A stretch of 64,000 nucleotides of DNA, from assembly GCA_029261255.1 (NCBI GenBank), contig JAJDBQ010000182.1:1-64000 (forward strand), given 5' to 3'. Under the pieces are notes generated by a model. It searched no databases. It had not been told where the DNA came from and saw only the letters and a list, made by a program, of their open reading frames with translations. Below, in pieces: positions 6,856 to 43,215 of this stretch (position 1 is its first letter; each line of letters begins with the position of its first letter). The translations under genes were made by a program, and so were the position numbers. Source of the stretch: Nitrospirales bacterium. GTDB lineage: Bacteria; Nitrospirota; Nitrospiria; Nitrospirales; UBA8639.

Positions 6856-8493
6856 TTAGACAGAGGAACCAGCGTAGCGTTTCCGCATACGCGTTCGAAT
6901 CATAATGGCCGCCAGATTCAAAAGAATGACGACGAGCACAAGGATGAATGTGGTCACATAAACCATCGGCTTCGCTGCTTCCACGTTGGGAGATTGAAAC
7001 CCCACATCATAAATATGAAATCCTAAATGCATAAATTTTCGATCCAAGTGGAGAAATGGGAAGAAGCCATCTACCGGCAGCGCTGGAGCCAATTTCACCA
7101 CACCTGTGAGCATCAGCGGCGCCACTTCCCCAGTCGCACGAGAAATTGCCAAGATCAGACCGGTCAAAATACCAGGCATCGCACAAGGAAGCACCACACG
7201 CCATAATGCCTCGAATTTCGTGGCTCCGAGCCCCAACGAGCCCTCGCGATACTCACGTGGAACCGCTGACAACCCCTCCTCTGTTGCAACAATCACCACG
7301 GGAACCGTCATCAGAGCGAGAGTTAAGGAGGCCCACAGCATACCTCCCGTCCCAAATGTCGGATTGGGCAACGCTTCAGCAAAGAATAATTGGTCCAAGG
7401 TTCCCCCAACCGCATACACGAAAAAACCTAACCCAAACACCCCAAAAACAATTGAGGGTACGCCGGCTAGATTATTCACTGCAATGCGTATCATTCTCGT
7501 CACCAAGCCTTGCTTCGCATATTCTTTTAAATAGATAGCGGCCAAGACCCCAAAAGGCACGACCGCAATGCTCATGATCACCACCATCAAGACCGTGCCA
7601 AAGATGGCTGGGAAAATCCCTCCCTCTGTATTGGCTTCTCGAGGTTCTTCGCTCAAAACCTCCCAGAAATTTTGCACATACATGACGAGTTTTTCATAAA
7701 CCCCCATGCTATTCGGCAGCCAGTACTTGACTAACGACCCAAACTGAAAGGTTTTCTCTTCTCCGGCCACGTCGACAACTGTGATCCGAAATTGCTCGAG
7801 TTTTTCATATAACGCAATAAGAGCAGCATTTTGAATCTCGTACAAAGCTTCAAGTTCTTGTACCTGCATCTCAATCGTCGCCCGTTCATCCACTCCTGTT
7901 TCACCACTCAACTCCAAGGCACGAAGCTGCAAGCGGGCTTGCTCTATAGCATGATTGAGTTCACCAATCTCATCATGTTCAATATCGTGAATCTGGCCTT
8001 GAATGCCATTCGTTCTATCTAGCAGAGAAGACAAGATGGCCATTCCATTTTCGTGCCCAGAGGCCACAAGAGTTTCGCCTTCTAGAATCGCTTTGATTCG
8101 CCCATAAAAGTTCCCCCATTCCCTCCGTTCAAACGCCACAACATCAGATGGATATTCCTCTTCCACAATGTCAGCCTGATCCACCCACCGAAAATCTAAA
8201 CCATAAAGATCTCGATTACCGACCTTGAGTTGAACGCGTTCATGGCCTTTCGGTTTGTCGACGGATTCAGAATCTGGAATAACTTCTGTCGTAACCCATT
8301 CTCCCAGCACGATACTGCCATCATTCAGCGTAAATTGAATGAGATCTTTTGGCCAGAAATAGCCCATTCCATTGATTAAGATTAATGTCAGCAACCCACC
8401 GATCATGAGTAAGGACACACTCAGCGCTCCGCCACACAACCAAATAAACAGCGAGCCTGAATCCAGAAACTTTTTCAAAGAGAATCGTTGCAT
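6856..8493 (-). CDS. pstA: Phosphate ABC transporter permease PstA, long form
   Basis: C-terminal permease domain (PREYREGSLGLGATKFEALWRVVLPCAMPGILTG); long N-terminal extension. Confidence 0.93.
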   Translation of the reverse strand: MQRFSLKKFLDSGSLFIWLCGGALSVSLLMIGGLLTLILINGMGYFWPKDLIQFTLNDGSIVLGEWVTTEVIPDSESVDKPKGHERVQLKVGNRDLYGLDFRWVDQADIVEEEYPSDVVAFERREWGNFYGRIKAILEGETLVASGHENGMAILSSLLDRTNGIQGQIHDIEHDEIGELNHAIEQARLQLRALELSGETGVDERATIEMQVQELEALYEIQNAALIALYEKLEQFRITVVDVAGEEKTFQFGSLVKYWLPNSMGVYEKLVMYVQNFWEVLSEEPREANTEGGIFPAIFGTVLMVVIMSIAVVPFGVLAAIYLKEYAKQGLVTRMIRIAVNNLAGVPSIVFGVFGLGFFVYAVGGTLDQLFFAEALPNPTFGTGGMLWASLTLALMTVPVVIVATEEGLSAVPREYREGSLGLGATKFEALWRVVLPCAMPGILTGLILAISRATGEVAPLMLTGVVKLAPALPVDGFFPFLHLDRKFMHLGFHIYDVGFQSPNVEAAKPMVYVTTFILVLVVILLNLAAIMIRTRMRKRYAGSSV

Positions 8494-8544
8494 TTTTTTA
8501 GTTATACTCTTGACGTTCCACTACTAACTTCTCACTTATTGCTA

Positions 8545-10899
8545 TTAGAACTGTGAATACTTCTCACGAAGACGTTGGCGAACTAGTTCAGCTATCGTAT
8601 TAATCCCAAACGTAAAAGCAAAGAGAATCAGGCCAGAGAGAAACAGCACACGATACAGCGTGCCCCCGTGAGGGGCTTCAGGCATTTCTACCGCAATATT
8701 GGCCGACAACGTTCGAAACCCATTGAACACACTCCAATCCATAATGGGCGTATTGCCCGTTGCCATCAAGACAATCATGGTTTCACCCACAGCGCGACCA
8801 AAGCCAATCATTAACGCCGAAAAAATCCCTGGACTGGCAGAGATCAAAACAAGTCGAGTGAGCGTTTGCCATTGAGTGGCTCCAAGGGCAAGAGAGCCGG
8901 CAACAAGATGTCGTGGCACATTGGAAAGAGAGTCCTCGGCAATACTAAAAATAATGGGGATCACCGCAAATCCCATGGCAAAACTAATCACAATGGCATT
9001 GCGCTGGTCATAGACCAATCCAAAGTGATCGGTGAGCCATTGCTTATAATTTCCTCCGAACACGATCGTTTCAATCGATGAGTTCAACGCGAGGCACATT
9101 CCAACTGTTCCCACGACCGCAACCACGATGATCAACAAATCCACGCCATATTTATCCAACCCGCCCAACGAACGAGGTAACATCTGCCAGAGCAGGCACA
9201 CCAACCCAATCATCACCGGTATAATAAGAGCCCCCGCTACAACCGCTGGAAAAATCTTCTCTAATAACGGGGCAAACCAGAGGCCCGCCAAAAATCCTAA
9301 GACCACAGACGGAAGGGCCGCCATGATTTCAATACTGGGTTTAATGATGGCTCGGAGATGCGGATGCATGAACATGGCAGTATAGACAGCACCCATGATT
9401 GCCAACGGAACAGCCAGAATCATGGCATAAATTGTTCCCTTCAATGTTCCAAATATGAGCGGCATCATGCCAAACTTTGGTTCAAATTCATCAGATCCGC
9501 TGGAGGATTGCCAAATCAGTTCAGGATCTTCATACCCTTCATAAGTGACCGGAAAAAATAACGATTGAAACGTAATTTCTGGATGAGGGTTGTCGATCAA
9601 AAATGTTCGCAAGAGCCCATCCGTCCCCAACCACGTCCCACCATCAGCCTTCGGTGAAAAACGAAGCGCGCTTGTCTCGGATAAGACCGAGTCAAATTCC
9701 AAAATCGTCTGGCCGGTCGTCGCATGATGAAGAATCACGTGCCCTTGACTATCAGCTGTCAAAAATCCCTTATCTCGCTGAGAGGGCGAAATGGCCTGGA
9801 CGACTCCATTATGGGCCTGAAACGTAGAGACTTTTCGGAATGGAACCATAGACCGGGCCTGCCGTTCATCCATGGGAACCCAGGTCATCACCTGCCCGGC
9901 TTCAGTCCCAACCACAAGTGTTCGCTCACCATTTAAATACGTTAAGGCTGTCACCGCTTCTCCTGATTCGCCAACTGGGATTCGACGAACCTTCGCTTCT
10001 CCTCCATCCGGCAACGTCCATTCTAAAAGTTCCCCCTGCTCGGTCCCGGCAACAAGACGCTTCCCAAATCCATCTAAAACCAAATGCGTAATGTGTACCT
10101 GTTCGGGGACTTTCAACTGTCGCTGCGTGACAGTGGCCTCATCTGAAAAAGAAAAATCTCCAGGCTCGTCTACTAAGGTAAGCCATAACGTCCCACTACG
10201 CGTCAGGGCCGCGATCATCTGTCGCTCATCCTTCTGCGAATGAGCATGACGCACCAATTCTTCTCCATCCGGAATCACCCGAATGGGTGTTTTGATCTGG
10301 CTGGTCGGCACAATTGTTCGCGTAGCTCCCTCGAAGACTGATCGAAAGAATATCGTGACCGGCACCACGAAGCCTTCTTGAGTCGCAACGCTCACTCCGT
10401 TCCCTATTTGGCCAATCAAGACTGTAGACTGTACAGTTCCTGAAATCTCAAGCTCCCCTCCTATTTCGGGAATAGAATCGCCCTGAGGCATTCGCAAGAA
10501 TTGCAACCGTTTTTGCATAAGCACAAAAGCCACTTCTTGATATTCATCTGATCCAATGACCGTGGTCTCTCTCGTGCCTCCCTTTTCCTTCTCGACTTGC
10601 ACTGTGGCCGAAACATTTCCACTCGTTGACCGAAACAATGGGATCACTTCCCACATCAAATAGAGAAAAATTCCCAAAATACTGATAATCGTGGCGATAC
10701 CGCCAACCCAGACCACTATGCCTGCTGAGCGATCAATGGTATGCCGTAGACGTCGATGCGTTGTTCGCGTTTTTCGCGTCGCCCATTGACCAGACGTTGA
10801 GGAAATTTCTTTACCAGAGATGGGAAGAGAACTGGGACTATTCATTCTCATAGAACAATTCACGTGATGCGGATGATAAAAAAGCCACTCCTTCGTCAA
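8545..10899 (-). CDS. pstC: Phosphate ABC transporter permease PstC, long form with repeat-rich N-terminal region
   Basis: C-terminal permease (VPRHLVAGSLALGATQWQTLTRLVLISASPGIFSALMIGFGRAVGETMIVLMATG); 784 aa; start codon may lie downstream (MNSPSS). Confidence 0.92.
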   Translation of the reverse strand: MTKEWLFYHPHHVNCSMRMNSPSSLPISGKEISSTSGQWATRKTRTTHRRLRHTIDRSAGIVVWVGGIATIISILGIFLYLMWEVIPLFRSTSGNVSATVQVEKEKGGTRETTVIGSDEYQEVAFVLMQKRLQFLRMPQGDSIPEIGGELEISGTVQSTVLIGQIGNGVSVATQEGFVVPVTIFFRSVFEGATRTIVPTSQIKTPIRVIPDGEELVRHAHSQKDERQMIAALTRSGTLWLTLVDEPGDFSFSDEATVTQRQLKVPEQVHITHLVLDGFGKRLVAGTEQGELLEWTLPDGGEAKVRRIPVGESGEAVTALTYLNGERTLVVGTEAGQVMTWVPMDERQARSMVPFRKVSTFQAHNGVVQAISPSQRDKGFLTADSQGHVILHHATTGQTILEFDSVLSETSALRFSPKADGGTWLGTDGLLRTFLIDNPHPEITFQSLFFPVTYEGYEDPELIWQSSSGSDEFEPKFGMMPLIFGTLKGTIYAMILAVPLAIMGAVYTAMFMHPHLRAIIKPSIEIMAALPSVVLGFLAGLWFAPLLEKIFPAVVAGALIIPVMIGLVCLLWQMLPRSLGGLDKYGVDLLIIVVAVVGTVGMCLALNSSIETIVFGGNYKQWLTDHFGLVYDQRNAIVISFAMGFAVIPIIFSIAEDSLSNVPRHLVAGSLALGATQWQTLTRLVLISASPGIFSALMIGFGRAVGETMIVLMATGNTPIMDWSVFNGFRTLSANIAVEMPEAPHGGTLYRVLFLSGLILFAFTFGINTIAELVRQRLREKYSQF

Positions 10900-10935
10900 T
10901 TAACGAGGGAGTGACTCACAGGCTTGCTGAAAACC

Positions 10936-11949
10936 CTATTCAAAATTTCCACGCTGTTTGGTAATGAGATCGGAACTTAATGGAAAATACCCATCTTTGA
11001 TCACAACCTGTTGGCCTTCACGACTATACACGAAATTCAAGAACTCTTTGACAATCGGAGACAAGGCTTTATTCGGGGCCTTGTTCACATAGACCAACAA
11101 AAAGCGCGCTAGGGGATAACTTCCTTTCGATGCATTGGCAAATGTCGGTTCCACAAAGTTGCCCCCATCTTTCATCGCCAAGGGTATAGCCCGCACTCCC
11201 GATGTACGGTACCCGATGCCACTGTATCCCATTCCTGCTCGATCTTCCGTCACTCCTTGAACCACAGATGCCGAACCCGGCTGTTCCTTCACTTGATCTC
11301 GATAATCGCCGTTCTGCAACACTTTCTTTTTGAAAAATCCGTACGTGCCAGAAGCGGAATTCCGTCCATATAAACTAATGGGCATCTTGGTAAATGCACC
11401 TTTCAACCCCAAGTTCCCCCATGTTGTGATGTCATTCTTGTACCCCTGACGACGCGTTTTTGAAAAGGCGGCATCCACCTGAGCCACCGTCATCCCAGGG
11501 ATCGGATTATCCTTGTTCACATAGACCGCTAATGCATCTATCGCCACTGGGAACGGAGTGGGTTTATACCCAAACTTGGCTTCGAAGGCATCCATTTCCT
11601 TCCCCTTCATTTTCCGAGACATAGGACCCAATTGGGCCGTCCCTTCAATCAACGCTGGGGGCGCAGTACTTGATCCTTTACCTTCTATTTGAATTTTCAC
11701 GTTCGGATATTGCTTTCGAAAACCCTCAGCCCACAACGTCATCAAGTTATTTAAGGTATCCGAGCCAATGCTATTGATATTGCCGGAGACTCCGCTGACT
11801 CGTGTATAACTTTTCCAGCTTGGGTCATCCATTGACTCCTTGGCCCCTGCGGTGGACGAATCGATCCCCGTGAGTCCAAACAACCCCAAGAACAGACCGA
11901 CCGCTACAGTACCAGCCCTCAGTACATTTCCTTTTGAGACAGACTCCAT
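10936..11949 (-). CDS. pstS: Phosphate ABC transporter substrate-binding protein PstS
   Basis: Signal peptide; [47 protein letters not shown] runs to 11988 but M at 11949 precedes the signal peptide. Confidence 0.93.
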
Positions 11950-12000
11950 GAACATTTCCTCCTTCGTATGTAGGTAAACATTATGCATTTCCTATATTTC

Positions 12001-12705: not shown

Positions 12706-13986
12706 ATGCCAGACAATCCCATGCATTTAGGCCTCATCCTTATGGCTGCCGAGAGCTCTCCAGAGCTAAAGAGGCTTATTCAAAGCTTCTCCGCTTATGG
12801 CTTTGAACTGAGGCTTGTCCCAGATGGCGAAACGGCACTTCTCTCCAGTCAAGAGCTCAAACCAGATTTAATTTTCCTTGATGTCTCGCTACCGGGCTTG
12901 AGCGGATTTGATACATGCCTGAGCCTCAAAGAACTGGACACGACCAAAGATACTCCAGTCATTTTTGTCACCACTCCATCAGACAGGGCGAGTACGGTGA
13001 AAGGATTTTCTGTCGGTGCAGTGGATTATGTGACGAGGCCATTTCAAATTGAAGAAGTCATAGCACGCATCACCACGCATTTAAAAATTCGAAATCTCCA
13101 AGTCCTGTTGAAAGAAATCATATCCAATCTTCAAGAGGAGGTGGCCGAACGTCAACGCGCAGAAGAAGCACTACAAGAATCGATGCAACTGGTTCAAGAA
13201 GCCAATAATTGCATGAAAAATGATCTCGCTGCAGCAGCCCGAGTCCAACAAGCACTCTTACCAGAAATCCTTCCCGCACTTTCAAACGTCTCATTTGCCT
13301 GGACCTATCAACCCTGCTCAGAATTAGGTGGGGATTCATTAAATGTGTTCCAGCTTGATGCTGATCACGTCGGACTCTACGTCCTAGATGTCAGCGGGCA
13401 CGGCGTTTCAGCGTCTCTTCTGTCAGTCACGCTGAGTCGCGTGCTTATTCCGCGACGCGACTCATCCTGCCTGATGATCAAGACTCATCGATCACCTGAA
13501 ACCGAAACGCTGGTTTCTCCCGCAGAAATTGCCACACGATTAAATTCCATGTTTCCGATGAGTGAAGATGGACGCCAATATTTCACGCTCATCTATGGCA
13601 TTCTCAATGTCCGAAACGGTGTCTTTCGATACACCTGTGCAGGCCATCCTCCACCGTTGTACCTCGCACCCAATCAAGACGTCAGCCAATGTGAGGTTGG
13701 GAATGTGCCAATCGGACTCTTTGAAGACAGCCAGTATGATGAAGGGATAATCCAACTCGAAGCAGGTGGGCGCCTGTACTTGTATTCTGACGGACTCATT
13801 GAAGCCAAGAATATTGCACGCAATTTTTTTGGAGAGACCCGACTGCAAGAAACATTAAGAGTCACCCATCAGTCACCATTACAACTGAGTGTGGATGCAA
13901 CGGTGAAGGCTGTATTGGATTGGACCGAGAACAATCACGCTCAGGATGATCTCTCTGTTCTCGCATTCGAGTGGACTCCACCATGA
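12706..13986 (+). CDS. Response regulator with C-terminal PP2C/SpoIIE-type phosphatase (RsbU-like)
   Basis: REC (DLIFLDVSLPGLSGFD), coiled coil, then PPM/SpoIIE domain (AAARVQQALLPE, LGGDSLNVF, DVSGHGVSASLLS, LYLYSDGLIEAKN). Confidence 0.92.
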   Translation: MPDNPMHLGLILMAAESSPELKRLIQSFSAYGFELRLVPDGETALLSSQELKPDLIFLDVSLPGLSGFDTCLSLKELDTTKDTPVIFVTTPSDRASTVKGFSVGAVDYVTRPFQIEEVIARITTHLKIRNLQVLLKEIISNLQEEVAERQRAEEALQESMQLVQEANNCMKNDLAAAARVQQALLPEILPALSNVSFAWTYQPCSELGGDSLNVFQLDADHVGLYVLDVSGHGVSASLLSVTLSRVLIPRRDSSCLMIKTHRSPETETLVSPAEIATRLNSMFPMSEDGRQYFTLIYGILNVRNGVFRYTCAGHPPPLYLAPNQDVSQCEVGNVPIGLFEDSQYDEGIIQLEAGGRLYLYSDGLIEAKNIARNFFGETRLQETLRVTHQSPLQLSVDATVKAVLDWTENNHAQDDLSVLAFEWTPP

Positions 13987-14438
13987 ACCATCAAACAAAC
14001 ATCCCCCACGAGCATGTGATTCTTGAACATCAGTTCCCTGCTCGTGCCAGGGAACTCGGACCCACAAGAGCCATGACACAAATGGCCCTCAATAATCATG
14101 GATGGGGCTCCGATATAGTAGATGACATTGTGCTGGCTATTGATGAAGCCTGCCAGAATATTATTCGTCATGCCTACCGTGGGGAATGCGATGACCCGAT
14201 TATTTTGCACATCGTACTCAACAATAAGGATTTGGTGGTCGAACTCGAAGATCACGCCCCAACAGTTAGCCCCGATTGCATGAATCCCCGCGCATTCGAA
14301 GATATCCGGCCTGGAGGCCTAGGTTGCCATTTTATTCGACAAGTGATGGACACCGTCTCCATCGAACCATCGTCAACGGAGCGAGGGAACGTGATGCGAA
14401 TGATTAAAGGCGTCCAACCTCCCCCGACATGTCAGTGA
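13983..14438 (+). CDS. Anti-sigma-factor-type serine kinase (RsbW-like HATPase)
   Basis: DIVLAIDEACQNIIRHAY N-box; GGLGCHFIRQVMDTV G-box; overlaps preceding gene by 4 nt. Confidence 0.9.
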   Translation: MNHQTNIPHEHVILEHQFPARARELGPTRAMTQMALNNHGWGSDIVDDIVLAIDEACQNIIRHAYRGECDDPIILHIVLNNKDLVVELEDHAPTVSPDCMNPRAFEDIRPGGLGCHFIRQVMDTVSIEPSSTERGNVMRMIKGVQPPPTCQ

Positions 14439-14776
14439 CCTATATGGGACATCACGTTCGCGAAGACCAGGGCTATCACATCGTGATTCTCACAGGAGAA
14501 ATCGACTTAGAGACCTCCCCCCATGCTCGGGAAATCTTACTCGATACGGTGGACCATTGCGTAAAACTTCTGGTTGATATGGCATCCGTGACCTATATTG
14601 ATAGTTCCGGTATCGCGACTCTCGTCGAAGCGTTCCAACGAGCGAAAAAGAAAGAAAAACAGATGGCATTTATCTGTCTGAACCCAGCAGTGGTCCGCGT
14701 GTTGTCCCTTGCCCGACTCGACAAAGTGTTTGCCATCCATACAGATATTGAAAGCGCAATCCATGCTAAGCCCTGA
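14429..14776 (+). CDS. STAS-domain anti-sigma antagonist (RsbV-like), in MlaB position
   Basis: ILTGEIDLETSPHAREILLD and VDMASVTYIDSSGIATLVEAF (conserved Ser); overlaps kinase and permease genes. Confidence 0.92.
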   Translation: MSVTYMGHHVREDQGYHIVILTGEIDLETSPHAREILLDTVDHCVKLLVDMASVTYIDSSGIATLVEAFQRAKKKEKQMAFICLNPAVVRVLSLARLDKVFAIHTDIESAIHAKP

Positions 14777-15584
14777 TCGGCCACTCCCACTTCTTCTTCA
14801 AAAATTAGAAGCCTTAGGACGAGTGACGACCAAATGGGTTGACGCTTTAGGATTTGGAGCAGCCTTACTCTATCAATCGAGTTTGTTGATCTTCTTAGGA
14901 GGTCGTCGAAAACAACAGGTTCGCCTCGGGCCTATCGTCTCGCAAATGATGGAAGTCGGCATTCTGGCATTACCGATTATTTCACTCGTTTCCGTGACGA
15001 TCGGACTGATGTTGGCTATTCAAGGCATCGAAGCGTTGAAAGATTTTGGTGCGGAGCATCAAGTCACTTATGGCGTCGCATTGTCCGTCGTTCGAGAATT
15101 CGCCCCATTGATCACAGGGATACTCATCGCTGGCCGATCAGGTTCGGCGTTTGCCGCTCGCCTGAGCACCATGACCATCAATAATGAAATTGATGCATTA
15201 CGTGTCATGGGCATTAATCCGACCCGATTCCTCGTTGTGCCAAGCCTCGTCGCCATGATGATCATGGTCCCATCGCTGACACTGTGGGCTGACCTGGTCG
15301 CACTGCTCGGAGCCGGTCTCTATATTTCAACGGATCTTGGCATTTCAATGGCAACCTATATGGCTCAAACGGTGGCGTATCTCGGAACCGACGATGTTTT
15401 GCACGGCGTAGGAAAAAGTCTGGTCTTTGGAGTGTTGATCACAATTGTCGGTGTGGTCAATGGATCATCCGTAACTGGTGGAGCAGAAGGCGTCGGAAAG
15501 GTAACAACTCGTGCAGTCGTACATTCCATCTTAGCCATCATCTTGGCCGACCTTCTCATTGTGTTTCTGCTCACTCGTTCATGA
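14763..15584 (+). CDS. mlaE: MlaE-family ABC transporter permease
   Basis: VREFAPLITGILIAGRSGSAFAARLSTMTINNEIDALRVMGINPTRFLVVPSLVA signature; ATG 14763. Confidence 0.93.
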   Translation: MLSPDRPLPLLLQKLEALGRVTTKWVDALGFGAALLYQSSLLIFLGGRRKQQVRLGPIVSQMMEVGILALPIISLVSVTIGLMLAIQGIEALKDFGAEHQVTYGVALSVVREFAPLITGILIAGRSGSAFAARLSTMTINNEIDALRVMGINPTRFLVVPSLVAMMIMVPSLTLWADLVALLGAGLYISTDLGISMATYMAQTVAYLGTDDVLHGVGKSLVFGVLITIVGVVNGSSVTGGAEGVGKVTTRAVVHSILAIILADLLIVFLLTRS

Positions 15585-15588
15585 AACG

Positions 15589-16407
15589 ATGCCCCCCTCT
15601 CATCCCATGATTGAAGTCACAGACCTCACCACGCATTACGGTTCTCGAAAAATTTTGAATGCTATTTCACTCACTGTCAATAAAGGTGAAATCATGGTGA
15701 TCATGGGTGGCAGCGGATCAGGCAAAAGTACCTTATTGCGCCACTTAATTGGACTGGAGCACCCAAGCTGCGGAAGTATTACACTCCTAGGCCAAAACAT
15801 TGCTCGTATGACTGAACAAGACATGACGCAGTTGTATCGGAAATTGGGAGTCGCCTTTCAAAGCGGCGCATTGTTTAGTTCGATGACTGTGGGAGAGAAC
15901 ATCATGCTCCCTTTACGAGAGCATACGAAACTCGATCAAAAGACGATGGAAATCATGGTCAGGCTCAAACTCGAAGTCGTCAACATGGCAGGCTTTGAAG
16001 ATTTGATGCCATCAGAACTTTCTGGCGGCATGTTGAAACGCGCAGCGTTTGCTCGAGCAGTCATTATGGATCCCGTGCTCTTGTTTTGCGACGAACCTTC
16101 AGCAGGTCTCGACCCAGTCGTGTCCTCAGCATTAGACGAACTGATACTTCGACTCAGAGAAGCACTCGACATGACCATCGTCGTCGTGACGCACGAACTA
16201 GAAAGCGCCTTCCGAATCGCTGATCGCATTACGGTGTTGGATAAAGGCGCCATTTTGACTATTGGATCCGTAGAGGAGGTACGTGCCTCTGGCAACAAAC
16301 GTATCCAAGACCTATTGAACCGAAACTTTGAAGAAGAGATCCTCAACCCAAATGAATACCTCGCTCGCCTCACAGGAGAAGCCGAAGACACCTTGAGCTA
16401 TGTATAA
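15589..16407 (+). CDS. mlaF: MlaF-family ABC transporter ATP-binding protein
   Basis: Walker A GGSGSGKST, LSGGMLKRAAFARAV, FCDEPSAGLDP; ATG 15589. Confidence 0.93.
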   Translation: MPPSHPMIEVTDLTTHYGSRKILNAISLTVNKGEIMVIMGGSGSGKSTLLRHLIGLEHPSCGSITLLGQNIARMTEQDMTQLYRKLGVAFQSGALFSSMTVGENIMLPLREHTKLDQKTMEIMVRLKLEVVNMAGFEDLMPSELSGGMLKRAAFARAVIMDPVLLFCDEPSAGLDPVVSSALDELILRLREALDMTIVVVTHELESAFRIADRITVLDKGAILTIGSVEEVRASGNKRIQDLLNRNFEEEILNPNEYLARLTGEAEDTLSYV

Positions 16408-16446
16408 CTTTACGGCACGTCACTCACTCACATTTTCAAGAAACGC

Positions 16447-17373
16447 ATGAGAGATTCTCGAAAAAACTATCTCGCCGTCGGAATCTTTGTGCTGACAATG
16501 TTGAGCGTGCTTGTTGTCTGGCTCACTGTACTTTCTGGCGGCACACAAACCACTAAGCCCTATTATATGGAGTTTGACAATGTCATTGGACTCTCGCGAG
16601 GTGGCCAAATCTTATTCGAAGGCTATCCGATTGGAGAAATCGAGGATATCGTCTTTACTCGTCGCCCCGATACATCTGTCTATCGACTCAATCTTAGGAT
16701 TCGTGAAGATTGGGATATTCCCGAAGACAGTGTCGCGATCATGACACAAGCTAGCGTACTGTCTGCCATGGTCATCGATATCCAGGCCGGAGCTTCTCAC
16801 CAGATACTTGCACCAGGGGAACAAATCCCTAGCGTGGGATCTAGCAACATCATGACCGCCATGTCATCCGTTGCGGTAAAATTGGGCAATCTGGCGGATA
16901 CAAGTTTGAAGCCCCTTCTTGATAATCTCTCAGGAGGCTCGAACTCCCTCACAGTCCTCTCTCAAGATGTCCCTGTGATCTTGGAAAATGTCAAAACCTT
17001 TACCAGGCAATTAACGACCGCCACAACCCGTCTTAATCACATTTTAGATCAAAGTGAAGAACCCATCGAGACAATCTTAGGGAAGGCCGAGTTGGCCTCT
17101 GGAAATATCTCCACCGTGACGACAGATTTTCACCAAACTCGGAAACAATTGGATACACTCTTGCTCTCATTGCGAAAAATCGTGCGCAATAATAGTGGAG
17201 AAATCGATCATTCTATTTCGGATCTGCATCATACGTTAGAAGTCGTGGCCAGCCATATTCAAGAAATCAGTTCTAATTTGGAAGCCACGACGCGAAACAT
17301 GAACGAACTCACTACCGACTTGAGGCGCAACCCGGGACTCATCGTACGAGGCCGGGAATTTAGCGAACCCTAA
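16447..17373 (+). CDS. mlaD: MCE/MlaD-family lipid-transport substrate-binding protein
   Basis: N-terminal TM helix; MEFDNVIGLSRGGQILFEGYPIGEI MCE domain; downstream of mlaF. Confidence 0.9.
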   Translation: MRDSRKNYLAVGIFVLTMLSVLVVWLTVLSGGTQTTKPYYMEFDNVIGLSRGGQILFEGYPIGEIEDIVFTRRPDTSVYRLNLRIREDWDIPEDSVAIMTQASVLSAMVIDIQAGASHQILAPGEQIPSVGSSNIMTAMSSVAVKLGNLADTSLKPLLDNLSGGSNSLTVLSQDVPVILENVKTFTRQLTTATTRLNHILDQSEEPIETILGKAELASGNISTVTTDFHQTRKQLDTLLLSLRKIVRNNSGEIDHSISDLHHTLEVVASHIQEISSNLEATTRNMNELTTDLRRNPGLIVRGREFSEP

Positions 17374-17387
17374 ACGAACGGACGAGG

Positions 17388-18026
17388 ATGGAAAAATTCC
17401 AAAAATGTTGGCAAATCGGCGGGTTGATGTTCATTATGCTCCTCTTGAGCGGATGCTTTGGAGGACAATCCTCACCGGATTATTTTTATCGATTCAATGT
17501 GCCAGCGCCAGAAACAAAACTCAATCCGTCTCCCTTACAAGGCACACTTCAAGTCACACGACCCTGGGCAGATGCCCTCACGAGTGAACGCCATCTCGTC
17601 TATCGCAAGGATAACAATATTTCCCAGCTCAACCACCACGCATACCACCGTTGGATAGACTCACCGACATTGCTGTTACAACAAGAAATGACGCAGTACT
17701 TACGAAAGGCTGGACTCGCACAGCAGGTGGTAACCCCAGAAATTCGTGCGAAGGCGGACTACGCCTTATCATGTCGGATTGCTAGGCTTGAACGTGTACT
17801 CGATCAATCTCCTCGAGTGATCTTAGAACTTGAACTCGGGATCACCTCAATGAAAGATCGTCGCACTCTCTTGTTGCGGAACTATCGTGAAGAATATCCA
17901 ACCACAAATCTTGAAGTCGCGACTTCAATCAATGCTTACAATGAGGCCTTAGCAAATATCCTACAACGTTTCATTATCGACACATCACAACTCTCGTTCC
18001 TCAAACTTACCGACAGCAAATTGTAA
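17388..18026 (+). CDS. ABC-type transport auxiliary lipoprotein (PqiC/DUF330-like)
   Basis: Lipobox LLLSGC; YYxF-like start and R-domain pattern; end of mla operon. Confidence 0.75.
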   Translation: MEKFQKCWQIGGLMFIMLLLSGCFGGQSSPDYFYRFNVPAPETKLNPSPLQGTLQVTRPWADALTSERHLVYRKDNNISQLNHHAYHRWIDSPTLLLQQEMTQYLRKAGLAQQVVTPEIRAKADYALSCRIARLERVLDQSPRVILELELGITSMKDRRTLLLRNYREEYPTTNLEVATSINAYNEALANILQRFIIDTSQLSFLKLTDSKL

Positions 18027-18063: not shown

Positions 18064-19467
18064 TTAAGTGGAGGTTGAGGGCATCTTTTCTTGAGAAGGA
18101 ACCGGAAATTCAATTTCTACGTTTGTCCCTTTCCCCACTACACTGTGGATACGGAGTTGCCCATTCAGCAGTTGAACCAAATGTTTCACAATAGATAATC
18201 CCAGGCCAGTGCCTCCTTCTTCCCGAGATCGAGCACGATCCACACGGTAAAACCGTTCAGTAATACGCGGTAAGTCCGTTGATGGAATTCCCTGGCCCGT
18301 ATCTTTCACCTGCAAGACAAGGAATTTATCCAATCGTTGGACGTTAAGCGAAATACTCCCGCCATCAAACGAATACTTAATCGCATTGTCGACGAGATTT
18401 AGGAGAATTTGAACCACGCGATCTCTGTCGACCCACACTCGCACCTCTTCATCGATGTGGCTCATAAGATGAAGAGCCTTTTTCTGCGCCTGCGGTTGAA
18501 ACATTTCAGTCACCTCATCAACCACACTTTTTAAGTCTACGGCTTCACATCGTACAATCACCTTTCCCGATTCAATTTCAGAAAGACTGCGCAAATCATC
18601 GACCAATCGATTCAGTCGCTCGGCATGTTGATGTGCCACATGCACAAACTTACGGTTATTCGGTGTTTCCAGAGATGGTTCATCAATCAACGTCTCGAGG
18701 TACCCGATAATCGCCGCCAAAGGTGTTCGGAGCTCATGCGACACGTTATCAATGAATTCGGCCCGTACCTGTTCTAAACGCCGCAATTGTGTGACATCAT
18801 GTAACACCATCACACTGCCATTTTTCTGATTGGTCAGCGGAAACGGCAAACCATACACCTCGACGGTCATGCGAGTCGGCGCATGAAGATCAATTTCCAC
18901 GAATTGCCGTTCATGAATAGCCAGGTCTCGACTTCTTTCGACTAAGTCTGCTAATTCCTGATTGCGAACGACTTCCCATATGGACTGCCCTTGAAACTCG
19001 AGGTCATCAATTCCAAGAATCCGACAAGCACTGGCATTGGTGAACAACACTTGCCCGTGAGAGTCAAAGGCCACAACCCCTTCCACTAAATTTTGAACAA
19101 TGGATGAAATTTTGGTCCGCTCCTCTTCAAGATCACCCATGCGTCTACTTGTGAGATCAACCATCTGCTGAAAATCTGACCCCAAAGACTCAGGTGAGGA
19201 ATGGAGCATGGGTAGTCCTTCGGAGGAATTAGTAAGCTGCTGCAACTCCAGAAGGCCTGCCCGGATTATCTTTTCAGTATCAAAACTTTTCTTCCATGCC
19301 TTCGCTGTTGTCACATATGCTCCAGTCAGGAGAGCCATGCCCAGCAACCCTATTACCCATAATGACCACTCCCAGGTCAGACCTGCCCCAATGACTATCA
19401 TGGCGGCAATCATCCAACCCACCTGCACGGCAGGAGCATCACACATGATTGGTTCGCTCCTTCGCAC
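18064..19467 (-). CDS. phoR: Phosphate regulon sensor histidine kinase PhoR
   Basis: PAS region, H-box FIDNVSHELRTPLAAIIGYLETL, N-box LLNLVDNAIKYS, GTGLGLSIVKHLV; downstream of phoB. Confidence 0.9.
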   Translation of the reverse strand: MRRSEPIMCDAPAVQVGWMIAAMIVIGAGLTWEWSLWVIGLLGMALLTGAYVTTAKAWKKSFDTEKIIRAGLLELQQLTNSSEGLPMLHSSPESLGSDFQQMVDLTSRRMGDLEEERTKISSIVQNLVEGVVAFDSHGQVLFTNASACRILGIDDLEFQGQSIWEVVRNQELADLVERSRDLAIHERQFVEIDLHAPTRMTVEVYGLPFPLTNQKNGSVMVLHDVTQLRRLEQVRAEFIDNVSHELRTPLAAIIGYLETLIDEPSLETPNNRKFVHVAHQHAERLNRLVDDLRSLSEIESGKVIVRCEAVDLKSVVDEVTEMFQPQAQKKALHLMSHIDEEVRVWVDRDRVVQILLNLVDNAIKYSFDGGSISLNVQRLDKFLVLQVKDTGQGIPSTDLPRITERFYRVDRARSREEGGTGLGLSIVKHLVQLLNGQLRIHSVVGKGTNVEIEFPVPSQEKMPSTST

Positions 19468-19475
19468 AGACAGAC

Positions 19476-20177
19476 TTATGAGTCCAGCTCAGCATCAAAA
19501 CGATAGCCCACGCCTTTCACCGTCACGACCCGCTTGTGTTCATTGCCGAGTTTTTCTCGGAGTCGACGGATGTGCACGTCCACCGTCCTCGATTCAATTT
19601 CGATCGCATTGGAATACCCCCACACCGTTTCCATAATCTGATCACGATTGAGCACACGCCCATTGACCTTCATGAGTCCGCATAATAAATCAAATTCTTT
19701 GACAGTCAGATCGACAACTTTTCCCTCAACCAATACTTGGTGTTTCCCCTCATCCACCACCAACGTTCCTATCTGCGTCACAGATGGAAGGTCTTGCGAC
19801 TGCCCTCGGCGCAACACAGCCTTCACCCTTGCCACAAGTTCTCGTGGGCTGAAGGGTTTCACCATATAATCATCGGCCCCCATTTCCAAGCCAACAATAC
19901 GATCCACCTCGTCCGCCTTGGCCGTCAGCATAATAATAGCGACCGACGCTGTCTTGGGGTCTGTCCGGAGCTTACGACACACCTCCAAGCCATCGACACC
20001 GGGCAACATTAGGTCGAGCACAATCAGATCAGGATGACGTTCTCTGGCAACTTGAAGCGCAGTTTCACCATCATGGGCCTCAAAACACTTGAGGCCTTCC
20101 TTTTCGAGGTGATACCGAACAAGTTCAACCAAATCCTTTTCATCATCGACGACTAACACAGTTGCTGCCATATACAC
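19476..20177 (-). CDS. phoB: Phosphate regulon response regulator PhoB
   Basis: REC (DLIVLDLMLPGVDGLE) plus OmpR/PhoB wHTH (TVDVHIRRLREKLG). Confidence 0.92.
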   Translation of the reverse strand: MYMAATVLVVDDEKDLVELVRYHLEKEGLKCFEAHDGETALQVARERHPDLIVLDLMLPGVDGLEVCRKLRTDPKTASVAIIMLTAKADEVDRIVGLEMGADDYMVKPFSPRELVARVKAVLRRGQSQDLPSVTQIGTLVVDEGKHQVLVEGKVVDLTVKEFDLLCGLMKVNGRVLNRDQIMETVWGYSNAIEIESRTVDVHIRRLREKLGNEHKRVVTVKGVGYRFDAELDS

Positions 20178-39970: not shown

Positions 39971-41014
39971 CTACACTACTGATGTGGGTTCGGGCGGTAT
40001 TGAAAGATCCGTCCCTTTTAACATCATGAGGCAGCTTAAACCGATGAAAATCCAAAGAATTTCTCGCAACCGCCGTATCAAGGCAAAGGTAATACCCGTC
40101 ACCTCTGTATACCCGAAGCTGATCAATAAAAGGGTATAACCGGCTTCTTGAGCACCCAAGCTCCCAGGTATAAAAAACGTCCCCCCTTTGATAAAGACGC
40201 TGAGTGCCGCAATTGAAATCGATGTCCAGATATCAACTCCAACATCTAAATAATACAAAATCGCATAGACTTCCAGGGTCTCACAAAGCCAGGCCAGGAA
40301 AAAAGTTCCCAAAGCCACATAAAACGTCCGTCGGTTGTCGGAATAAAACCGTCGTATCGTGGCATCCAATTCTCGCAATTGGTCTTCTCGATTTTCAAGA
40401 AAGGCCAATCGGATGCCACAGCTTCTCAAGAGGGTCAGACATCCTATCCCCAGCCCATAGCGTTGAAACATCACAAACAAGCCCACGCCAAATGCCAGAA
40501 GGCCCACACTCACAAGCATCGCCATCCAGTAGTGAGTGGCTGCATCCAAAATCCAAAATGCGAGGCCTAACCCTAATAAAATAAAGAGAACCTGAGCGAG
40601 TGTCATTGTCGTCTTCGCTGTAATGACCGAGGCCATGCTCTCAACCATTGGAACGCCGTATCTCTTGAGCAAATAGGCCTTCAATGGTTCACCACCCATA
40701 TAGGCCGCGGGCGTGGTGACATTGACCGTCTCACCAGCCATTCTGATCGCAAACACACGCAAGAACCCCACCTTGGCACCAGAAGCCCCTAAGGTAAGCC
40801 GCCAGCCCCAGGCTTCAAGCCCATAAACGAGAATCATAGGGAGCAAGATGATACAAAGCGGAAGAGGTCCCAGTTGAGAGGCTGCGTTAAGAATTTGTTC
40901 GAGACCGATGTGAAGCACGATCCCGATCAGGGCAATGAGCCCAATAATCAGGAACACCAATTTAAGCACGAGAGATGAGATTTCGACGGAGAAGCCAGGC
41001 CATTGACGTGACAA
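39971..41014 (-). CDS. Lysylphosphatidylglycerol synthase TM-region/UPF0104 family membrane protein
   Basis: Multi-TM; GGEPLKAYLLKRYGVP, FFIPGSLGAQEAGYTLLL. Confidence 0.85.
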   Translation of the reverse strand: MSRQWPGFSVEISSLVLKLVFLIIGLIALIGIVLHIGLEQILNAASQLGPLPLCIILLPMILVYGLEAWGWRLTLGASGAKVGFLRVFAIRMAGETVNVTTPAAYMGGEPLKAYLLKRYGVPMVESMASVITAKTTMTLAQVLFILLGLGLAFWILDAATHYWMAMLVSVGLLAFGVGLFVMFQRYGLGIGCLTLLRSCGIRLAFLENREDQLRELDATIRRFYSDNRRTFYVALGTFFLAWLCETLEVYAILYYLDVGVDIWTSISIAALSVFIKGGTFFIPGSLGAQEAGYTLLLISFGYTEVTGITFALIRRLREILWIFIGLSCLMMLKGTDLSIPPEPTSVV

Positions 41015-42446
41015 AGAACCACGATCCGATCGCGGCTAAGGCAAGAAACCAGTGCAAGAAACCCAAAGCAGCACAGATCAACACGACCACGGAAAAGTCT
41101 CGATTCGCGACTTTACCGAGCATAAAATCGATTTTTGTACGTTCACGGTCAGTTAACGGATTCGAGTCACGTGAACGAGAACGCAACTGCCGAGCAGTGT
41201 TTACTAATAATAATGACGCAACATTTGCCAACATGGCAGATGCACCCAGCACCAATGGCAAATTTGTTTGCTCCCACGGGCCCTGAAGGTAAGCTCCACA
41301 TGCTATTCCGGCAAAAATGGCGATATGCACGACATTGTCTGCCCAAATATCCAACTCCTGGCCGAATTTTGACTCGGAGTACGTGAGCCTTGCGACTTCG
41401 CCATCACAGCAATCAATGATAACCGACAATTGAAAAAGGAAAGCCCCAATCAGAGCAAACTGCCACGAGCCGGGGATAAAAAATCCTGCTGCAAGTAAGC
41501 CCACGACCATGGACAGCACAGTAATCGCATTGGGTGACCATCGTAATTTCAGAAACAGTCGAGTCAGAATGCCAGAACATTTTCGATTGACGTAGCGATC
41601 AACAAATCCATCTAACCCACCCTTCAAAGTCTGCAGCGAACGGACCAACGTTTGTTCGGCCAGCTTTGGCCCCTGAGGTCCGCGAACATCTCGAAACCAA
41701 TGCGTCTCGCCGGGTATCGCCATGACCGTCCCTTCAACCGCAGCCTGTTCCAAGGCTAAACGTAAGGGATTCGTTCCACTGGCATGCAGCACACCCGATA
41801 TCCCCAATAATCGACCTGGCAACACCATCAGATCGCCAACGATTGGTAAACACGATGCTTCGTGATTGCTGCCGTGTGAAGTCATTTCTATCGTGGCAGC
41901 CACTGGGGGATCTCGAAACATGACAGAAGAGGCGGAGTTGCCTTCCAGGCCTTCAGGCCTCACCACCACGCTAGGGTTACCGACATGATAACCCTCCGTA
42001 GAATAACCGACGACAACAACCGCTTTACCTTGTCCACCCTCGTGTCTTAATTGTTGTACCAGTGAAGGAGAAAATACAGTATGGCAACCCACGACCATAC
42101 ATGACCCATTGACTTCATCGGCCAGCGTTTCCCACGTTTCAGAATCATGCGGAGGAAATTCGCGCACCGGCAGCCATCGGACGGCAGCCTGCAACCGGCT
42201 GTCTTGTTGTAATAAATTTCGAAGGGCTGCTTCCTCTTTGCCAGCTAAGACCCAAATTTGAGAGATACCACCGCGTTGTAAAGTGAGTACAGCTCGTTGA
42301 AAAAGAGTCATCCCGCCAACACGCGTCAATGGACTGGGCATAACCTGCTCAGAATCCATGTAGTCAGAAGCGAAGACGCCTGCAGATGTCAGCAGAATGG
42401 CTGTATCAACAGCGTCGGTTGTCTCTTGTTTGAGAATTCCATCCAT
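40962..42446 (-). CDS. CDP-alcohol phosphatidyltransferase with degenerate N-terminal nucleotidyltransferase-like domain
   Basis: C-terminal DCCDGEVARLTYSESKFGQELDIWADNVVH matches the CDP-alcohol phosphotransferase motif. Confidence 0.88.
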   Translation of the reverse strand: MDGILKQETTDAVDTAILLTSAGVFASDYMDSEQVMPSPLTRVGGMTLFQRAVLTLQRGGISQIWVLAGKEEAALRNLLQQDSRLQAAVRWLPVREFPPHDSETWETLADEVNGSCMVVGCHTVFSPSLVQQLRHEGGQGKAVVVVGYSTEGYHVGNPSVVVRPEGLEGNSASSVMFRDPPVAATIEMTSHGSNHEASCLPIVGDLMVLPGRLLGISGVLHASGTNPLRLALEQAAVEGTVMAIPGETHWFRDVRGPQGPKLAEQTLVRSLQTLKGGLDGFVDRYVNRKCSGILTRLFLKLRWSPNAITVLSMVVGLLAAGFFIPGSWQFALIGAFLFQLSVIIDCCDGEVARLTYSESKFGQELDIWADNVVHIAIFAGIACGAYLQGPWEQTNLPLVLGASAMLANVASLLLVNTARQLRSRSRDSNPLTDRERTKIDFMLGKVANRDFSVVVLICAALGFLHWFLALAAIGSWFFVTSMAWLLRRNLISRA

Positions 42447-42459
42447 AGCTAGATCACGT

Positions 42460-43215
42460 TCATGTCACGGGAATATTTGAAGGCCTCTGCTCGATGGCCT
42501 TGATCGCCGATACAATCTTCAATTCGCCTCTTTTCACATCTTCAGGGAAGTCTATTTCGATCCAGGGTAGTCCCCCAATTTTTTCATAACCGACCCGCAC
42601 ATCCTGAAAAAAAGTCGTGAGCGCATCCTCATATTCCATATCCAACTTATCAGCCTCAATACATGCCTGAACAGCATTCAGCAAAGATGGAACATCTTGC
42701 TTTTGCACCTTCAAAAACCCCACGCCTTCACCAGTTTCTTCGTAATCGGCCGGAAGTACCTTGCTCAAAGAAAGCACACGACCATCTTGCGCTGCGACCA
42801 TACATTCTTCAGTTTCTTGTCTCACCGTTTCATCCATCAACAATGCCGAAGGCTGAGAAGACTGCAACAAACGAGTTAAAATCTCTGAGGCATACAACAC
42901 ATCGGCATCCATCAGCACAACATCATCATTCATTTCATCTCGTGCCGCCCATAGTGAGGTAATACTTCCTCGAACAAATTTCTCGTTCACGATATATGTA
43001 ATAGGACAGGTTGAAGCTTCTGCATGCATCGCCTCACGAATCGCATCTTGTGCAAAACCCACGACCAACACAATTTCAGACACACCCAACCGATTCAAGC
43101 ATTCCACATGACGTGACAAGAGAGTCCGCCCTCCAATCGTCACCAAACATTTAGGCTTCCCACCTGTGACAGCTTGCAAGCGCCGCCCTACACCCGCGGC
43201 GAAAATAATGGCCTT
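42460..43215 (-). CDS. Sugar/phosphonate-type nucleotidyltransferase
   Basis: MKAIIFAAGVGRRLQAVTGGKPKCLVTIGGRTLL NTP-transferase motif. Confidence 0.88.
   Translation of the reverse strand, partial: KAIIFAAGVGRRLQAVTGGKPKCLVTIGGRTLLSRHVECLNRLGVSEIVLVVGFAQDAIREAMHAEASTCPITYIVNEKFVRGSITSLWAARDEMNDDVVLMDADVLYASEILTRLLQSSQPSALLMDETVRQETEECMVAAQDGRVLSLSKVLPADYEETGEGVGFLKVQKQDVPSLLNAVQACIEADKLDMEYEDALTTFFQDVRVGYEKIGGLPWIEIDFPEDVKRGELKIVSAIKAIEQRPSNIPVT

Follow-up and report, generated by a model that had tools for sequence, protein, structure and literature searches.

A Mla-type lipid transporter operon with a dedicated partner switch that probably acts on the transporter ATPase

What is a complete partner-switching module doing in an operon for lipid transport? 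The question is raised by a Nitrospirales genome (GenBank assembly GCA_029261255.1), of which a 64,000-nucleotide stretch was analysed (contig JAJDBQ010000182.1, positions 1 to 64,000, hereafter the window). Seven genes in it encode a phosphatase (U), a kinase (W) and a STAS protein (V) of the RsbU, RsbW and RsbV types, followed by an MlaE-type permease, an MlaF-type ATPase, an MlaD-type MCE protein and a lipoprotein. By analogy with characterized systems, we consider it probable that the operon specifies an MCE/Mla-type lipid ATP-binding cassette (ABC) transporter with a dedicated, sigma-free partner switch on its ATPase. On balance, we also favour the view that lipid ABC transporters of this kind are widespread and form a class in which the ATPase would be gated by a Ser-phosphorylated STAS protein with its own kinase and phosphatase and interchangeable sensors. 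On/off control by phosphorylation is probable because the kinase, phosphatase and switch set lies beside a transporter ATPase gene in many bacteria from two phyla.

An earlier note on this DNA, made from the letters alone, had suggested that mlaE loci be surveyed for this gene order, and the order does recur across two phyla. The window MlaE shares 92% identity with its counterpart in 'Nitrospirales bacterium OFTM76', and a search of the GTDB species set with a profile of its clade returned 35 loci. Wherever the contig permits, the order U-W-V-MlaE-MlaF-MlaD-lipoprotein (the cassette) is repeated, with slight variation in the last genes, in Nitrospirota, in Rhodospirillales (Magnetospirillum, Roseospirillum, Dongia, Pelagibius and others) and in one gammaproteobacterial metagenome-assembled genome. 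The whole cassette is present in another Nitrospirota family (genome G274, locus L135), and a distant cyanobacterial match (L105) is without the cassette order. In class-wide searches, 4 of 295 Nitrospirota genomes carried clade MlaE, as did 14 of 386 genomes from the class of Magnetospirillum UT-4 and 39 of 321 from the class of the gammaproteobacterial genome. De-duplication left 76 clade MlaE genes, 73 of them with at least 1.2 kb of upstream sequence, and genes within 6 kb were counted as neighbours. W and V both stand beside 70 of these 73, and beside not one of the 45 MlaE genes outside the clade (STAS fusions or other short MlaE), which gives a Fisher p of 2e-29, uncorrected for relatedness. 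The 45 are what remains of 47 after two that had counted as neighbours were explained and taken out, namely a second MlaE directly after a cassette (L197) and a piece of a clade MlaE whose reading frame is split (L104). Among the 321 Gammaproteobacteria genomes, clade MlaE occurs in 39, W in 50 and both in 37 (p 5e-35). Rearranged loci are still linked, with U-W-V lying past the lipoprotein gene on the opposite strand (L185) or with U divergent (L194). Chance clustering of the cassette genes is ruled out by the locus and class-wide surveys.

Which transporter component, then, does the switch accompany? The gammaproteobacterial W search yielded 13 genomes that have W and lack clade MlaE, and in seven of them V is directly followed by MlaF. 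After U-W-V-MlaF, three of these loci (L281, L285, L288) continue with an unrelated MlaE and a short MlaD, three (L279, L284, L290) have no further transporter gene, and the contig of L287 ends within MlaF. U-W-V precedes an unrelated MlaE and MlaD in L283, L289 and L242 (genome G804), with clade MlaF convergent nearby. Genomes G764, G840 and G905 have U-W-V without an adjacent clade MlaF (the G905 contig ends soon after W) and carry a clade MlaF scoring 401–452 bits elsewhere. Since U-W-V stays with MlaF when the permease and MCE protein are exchanged, it is MlaF that constantly accompanies the switch, and not the permease.

MlaF (15589..16407; Pfam ABC_tran 110.1 bits) is thus the presumed target of V, and the solved structures nearest to it include MlaF of Acinetobacter baumannii and Escherichia coli. 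Its C-terminal extension (16324..16404) contains NPNEYLARLTG, in which Tyr257 and Leu261 align with Tyr261 and Leu265 of E. coli MlaF. The E. coli extension inserts Tyr261, Leu265 and Leu266 at the MlaF–MlaB interface (PMC7367683). The Tyr-x3-Leu motif was found in 81 of 86 V-type MlaF proteins versus none of 33 encoded beside STAS-MlaE fusions, and also in many gammaproteobacterial MlaF proteins of canonical Mla operons, some of which have a separate MlaB-like STAS gene. Alphaproteobacterial and Nitrospirota MlaF proteins beside other short MlaE are without the extension, the three motif matches there (L113, L114, L117) falling in the ATPase body. Within this set, the extension accompanies a stand-alone STAS partner, Veillonella being the reported exception. 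A structural model of the window MlaF alone (mean predicted local distance difference test score, pLDDT, 73.5; about 50 in the extension) showed no more than a suggestion of a terminal helix and was not used as evidence.

If V is to act on MlaF, is it a MlaB? V (14429..14776; Pfam STAS 65.3 bits) is a stand-alone STAS protein and predicted phospho-switch of 115 amino acids; it has a C-terminal helix, and MlaB is marked by the lack of the C-terminal strand/helix of SpoIIAA. All 73 of the 73 V sequences contain the Asp-Ser-Ser motif, and the serine noticed earlier in TYIDSSG is confirmed. This predicted phospho-acceptor, Ser59 (codon 14603..14605, within DSSG), aligns with Ser58 of SpoIIAA and Thr52 of E. 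coli MlaB, the SpoIIAA sequence in this alignment and in the STAS tree not having been drawn from a database. V scores 75.8 bits against the anti-sigma-antagonist model TIGR00377, above its cut-off, and 24.5 bits against the MlaB model NF033618, whose cut-off is 90. Its sequence and fold matches in the PDB are independent of that SpoIIAA sequence, and both place TM1442, SpoIIAA and RsbV ahead of MlaB. An AlphaFold2 model of V (pLDDT 92), from which the fold matches were obtained, resembles RsbV (6m36; template modelling score 0.75–0.92) more closely than MlaB (6xbd; 0.58–0.69). In a FastTree phylogeny of 47 STAS sequences, V falls outside both the MlaB-like and the fused-STAS groups; TM1442 sits inside the V group at negligible support, and the monophyly of V is therefore not established. 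The NF033618 score, the tree and the fold matches rule out V as a true MlaB orthologue. The 'phospho-switchable MlaB' of the earlier note consequently keeps its conserved serine and loses its MlaB identity. The note's placing of the STAS gene at the MlaB position does not hold either, as mlaB comes last in E. coli, after mlaC, and V precedes mlaE. V is an RsbV-type protein and, by analogy, probably fills the role of MlaB.

The enzymes that would act on V keep their active-site residues. W (13983..14438; Pfam HATPase_c_2 89.3 bits) is a predicted RsbW/SpoIIAB-like Ser/Thr protein kinase in which E55 and N59 (N-box), D90 (G1) and G111, G112 and G114 (ATP lid) are invariant in 71 of 71 sequences, and the RPGGLG box is conserved across the same 71. 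U (12706..13986; 426 amino acids) joins an input domain, here a degenerate receiver, to a PP2C/SpoIIE-type Ser/Thr phosphatase (Pfam Response_reg 68.9 bits, SpoIIE/PP2C 140.3 bits), and the metal-ligand Asp residues of its GD, D, DG and DD motifs are retained in 64 of 64 or 65 of 65 sequences. Most relatives of the window's genus, and most alphaproteobacteria, encode U and W as one protein; in the window and in G034 (NPIRA02) the two are separate with a four-base overlap. That the split in the window might be an artefact, a frameshift in a fused gene, was considered and rejected: G034, from an independent genus, is also split with an overlap of ATGA length, and the split is therefore taken as real. 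At its N-terminus, U carries REC as the input domain in cassettes of Nitrospirales, GAF in those of alphaproteobacteria and of many gammaproteobacteria, and HDOD in other gammaproteobacteria, and in L135 this domain is unalignable to REC domains and GAF-like in appearance. The PP2C-kinase-STAS core and the transporter remain constant while this domain changes. In the window receiver, as in most congeners, the phospho-Asp is retained, the acidic pair is gone and Lys is replaced by Arg, which makes phosphorylation by a histidine kinase doubtful. The 'receiver-driven' phosphatase of the earlier note is accordingly doubtful too, the more so as most relatives carry GAF or HDOD instead.

The proteins of the switch belong to the families that regulate sigma-B and sigma-F, so is a sigma factor at hand? 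A search with the E. coli sigma factors RpoD, RpoE and FliA, for which the E. coli rpoD locus was the positive control, detected no sigma-70-family open reading frame anywhere in the 64 kb of the window; the 62 related loci likewise contained no alternative sigma gene. The earlier note had already stated the absence for the immediate surroundings of the operon. A sigma circuit was rejected on this basis, the sole sigma gene in the window or loci being a housekeeping-type RpoD near L100. Separate MlaB genes in some cassette-bearing genomes belong to other Mla operons. The situation named beforehand as contrary to a transporter-directed switch, a separate MlaB together with a V bound only to a sigma-linked anti-sigma factor, did not come true. 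Linkage, the swapping of sensors and transporter parts, the invariant residues and the lack of an alternative sigma gene all favour the larger proposal, a complete partner-switching set that is dedicated to a transporter of the Mla type instead of a sigma factor.

How might such a switch work? In the mechanism that we propose, non-phosphorylated V would bind MlaF as MlaB does in E. coli and support assembly or ATPase activity (on). W would use ATP to phosphorylate Ser59, whereupon V would be released from MlaF (off), and U with an activated input domain would dephosphorylate V and turn transport on again, with no involvement of a sigma factor. We infer the phosphorylation of V, its contact with MlaF and the on/off polarity from SpoIIAA/SpoIIAB and from E. 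coli MlaF–MlaB. The polarity follows E. coli data, in which MlaB is required for MlaF to join the complex and MlaB T52E weakens MlaF binding (PMC7367683).

The same genes could be wired otherwise. W itself might be the effector, binding and inhibiting MlaF or MlaE as an anti-sigma factor does sigma, with non-phosphorylated V drawing W off. RsbW and SpoIIAB operate so, W is linked to the transporter as constantly as V, and V is more RsbV-like than MlaB-like. However, direct STAS–MlaF contact and STAS-MlaE fusions are known, including a paralogue in the same genome, whereas contact between RsbW and an ABC transporter is not, and the MlaF extension, which meets the STAS protein in E. coli, is retained here; we regard this wiring as unlikely. 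The chance is slimmer still that U-W-V form a classical stress circuit acting on a sigma factor or another remote target, the transporter genes being merely co-transcribed. Although the protein families are those of sigma-B and sigma-F regulators and a few gammaproteobacterial genomes carry U, W or V away from transporter genes, the 62 loci hold no alternative sigma gene, the MlaF linkage outlasts rearrangement and permease exchange, the cassette occurs in two phyla, and the module was never found at other MlaE operons. Similarly improbable is a transporter that acts as the sensor: MlaF would hold or free V depending on the transport load, and V, once freed, would signal the envelope state to W and U and through them to another output. 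Identical contacts would yield identical linkage, and STAS or STAS-like proteins of other partner switches (HsbA, SiaC) are described in the literature as acting on further targets; but no other conserved output gene was seen in the examined loci, and the variable input domain on U implies that the signal enters there.

Several observations weigh against a V-operated switch on MlaF. Three clade MlaE loci (L180, L181, L182) are without U-W-V, and G1035 has W and V with no clade MlaF found, the only such case among the 13 genomes. Because V groups with RsbV-type STAS proteins and not with MlaB, the MlaB-like role is an analogy. MlaB T52A abolishes ATPase activity in E. coli and keeps MlaF binding (PMC5016091), and a bound yet inactive state (PMC7367683) means that the switch may not be simple release, catalytic effects being possible. 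Veillonella MlaF was modelled with a short C-terminal extension in an organism without MlaB (PMC10665443), and the extension alone is therefore no proof of a STAS partner.

Some variants of the cassette deserve description in their own right. In L180 (G804), a GAF/HD-type open reading frame (7018-8130) lies directly upstream of a clade mlaE-F-D-lipoprotein operon, replacing U-W-V. Another locus of this genome, L242 (5015-10535), has U-W-V before canonical-type mlaE-mlaD-mlaA-mlaC with convergent mlaF and no mlaB detected, that is, a full Mla pathway with a partner switch in the place of MlaB. L182 (G787), L282 (G840) and L291 (G1035) share similar flanking open reading frames (DUF1841-like in 3/3, endonuclease III-like in 2/3); one of these genomes has the transporter half only and two have U/W/V or W/V only, as in complementary losses or splits of the cassette. 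Tandem V genes (about 116 and 145 bits) stand between W and mlaE in L141 (762-1495) and L143 (1276-2009), both with DSSG, and perhaps one serves the kinase and the other MlaF. L197 (10080-11536) carries, behind the cassette, a further mlaE together with a short mlaD, and the part of the locus that was read showed no additional mlaF; the two permeases may thus use one ATPase and one switch in common.

Is any of this already known? The MlaFEDB complex of E. coli (PMC7367683, PMC5016091) shares the MlaE/MlaF/MCE core, a stand-alone STAS protein with a Ser/Thr phospho-site and an MlaF extension with Tyr and Leu. It differs in that its operon has no cognate kinase or phosphatase gene, its MlaB is short and encoded last (here V is RsbV-type and ahead of mlaE), and it has MlaC and no PqiC-type lipoprotein. 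Phosphorylation of MlaB has been proposed there and left as an open question (PMC5016091, PMC7367683). The chimeric Mla-Pqi system of Brucella, Mpc (PMC12436622), resembles the window operon in MlaE/MlaF, a long MlaD-like MCE protein, a PqiC-like lipoprotein and the lack of MlaC; unlike here, its STAS domain is fused to MlaE, in a four-gene operon for which no kinase or phosphatase is described. Veillonella MlaEFD (PMC10665443) likewise has a long MlaD in an operon without MlaA and MlaC, but has no MlaB/STAS counterpart, and no kinase, phosphatase or PqiC-type lipoprotein is described in its operon.

On the regulatory side, RsbU-RsbW-RsbV and SpoIIE-SpoIIAB-SpoIIAA likewise combine a PP2C phosphatase, a HATPase_c_2 kinase and a STAS phospho-protein, and the catalytic residues are conserved; here there is no sigma factor, and the genes conserved alongside encode a lipid ABC transporter. 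Some known partner switches have outputs other than sigma factors. HsbR-HsbA and SiaABCD of Pseudomonas and SypE-SypA of Vibrio are partner switches of Gram-negatives with a STAS or STAS-like effector, but their outputs are the anti-sigma factor FlgM and RpoS control, a diguanylate cyclase and a biofilm locus, not an ABC transporter. In some of them, phosphatase and kinase are on a single polypeptide. Searches of open-access papers turned up no description of mla genes linked to kinase and phosphatase genes, nor of a partner switch that acts on an ABC transporter. If the proposal is true, a transporter would be added to the known outputs of partner switches, traffic of lipids between the two membranes would come under post-translational control, and the recurrence of STAS proteins with MlaE/MlaF would be explained. 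With STAS protein, probable kinase and phosphatase encoded together with the transporter, it is testable whether STAS phosphorylation gates an ABC ATPase.

The remaining genes of the operon complete the transporter. The permease (14763..15584; Pfam MlaE 231.3 bits) is followed, after MlaF, by the MCE protein (16447..17373; 308 amino acids; Pfam MlaD 46.5 bits with a TIGR00996 match), which has a long C-terminal region, and by an ABC_trans_aux (PqiC-like) lipoprotein with an LSGC lipobox (17388..18026; 212 amino acids; PF03886, 47.2 bits). The joint presence of MlaE, MlaF and an MCE protein constitutes a Mla/MCE lipid ABC transporter gene set; neither MlaC nor MlaA is in the window operon, the rest of the genome not having been searched for either. 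All seven proteins score above the Pfam gathering cut-offs, and NCBIfam models were used too. Together with the open reading frame listing, they confirm seven genes on the plus strand with the overlaps first noticed (U/W four bases, ATGA; V/MlaE 14 bases). The cassette sits between pst-type phosphate transporter genes and phoR/phoB on the minus strand (6856-11988 and 18064-20177), and congeneric cassettes (L054, L055, L058) are likewise flanked by PhoB-like and ABC-ATPase (PstB-like) matches. Pho control was considered because of these neighbours and rejected, Pho-box matches being at chance level with none upstream of U.

The genome, 4.36 Mb in 251 contigs of which the window is C93, is about 88% complete, which limits claims of absence. 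W is its sole strong RsbW-like kinase match (89 bits versus 33 for the next). V, earlier described as the only STAS gene, is so for the operon and not for the genome, which has 21 STAS matches, including one that is part of a fusion with a second MlaE. This second MlaE system is split across two contig ends (C99 and C188, sharing MKVTEELDAVRTLG...), and its MlaE has an N-terminal STAS domain, as in Brucella MpcE (PMC12436622). On contig C151 (about 40658-43117), a weak HATPase_c_2 match of 33 bits clusters with two STAS matches, suggestive of a stressosome-like cluster.

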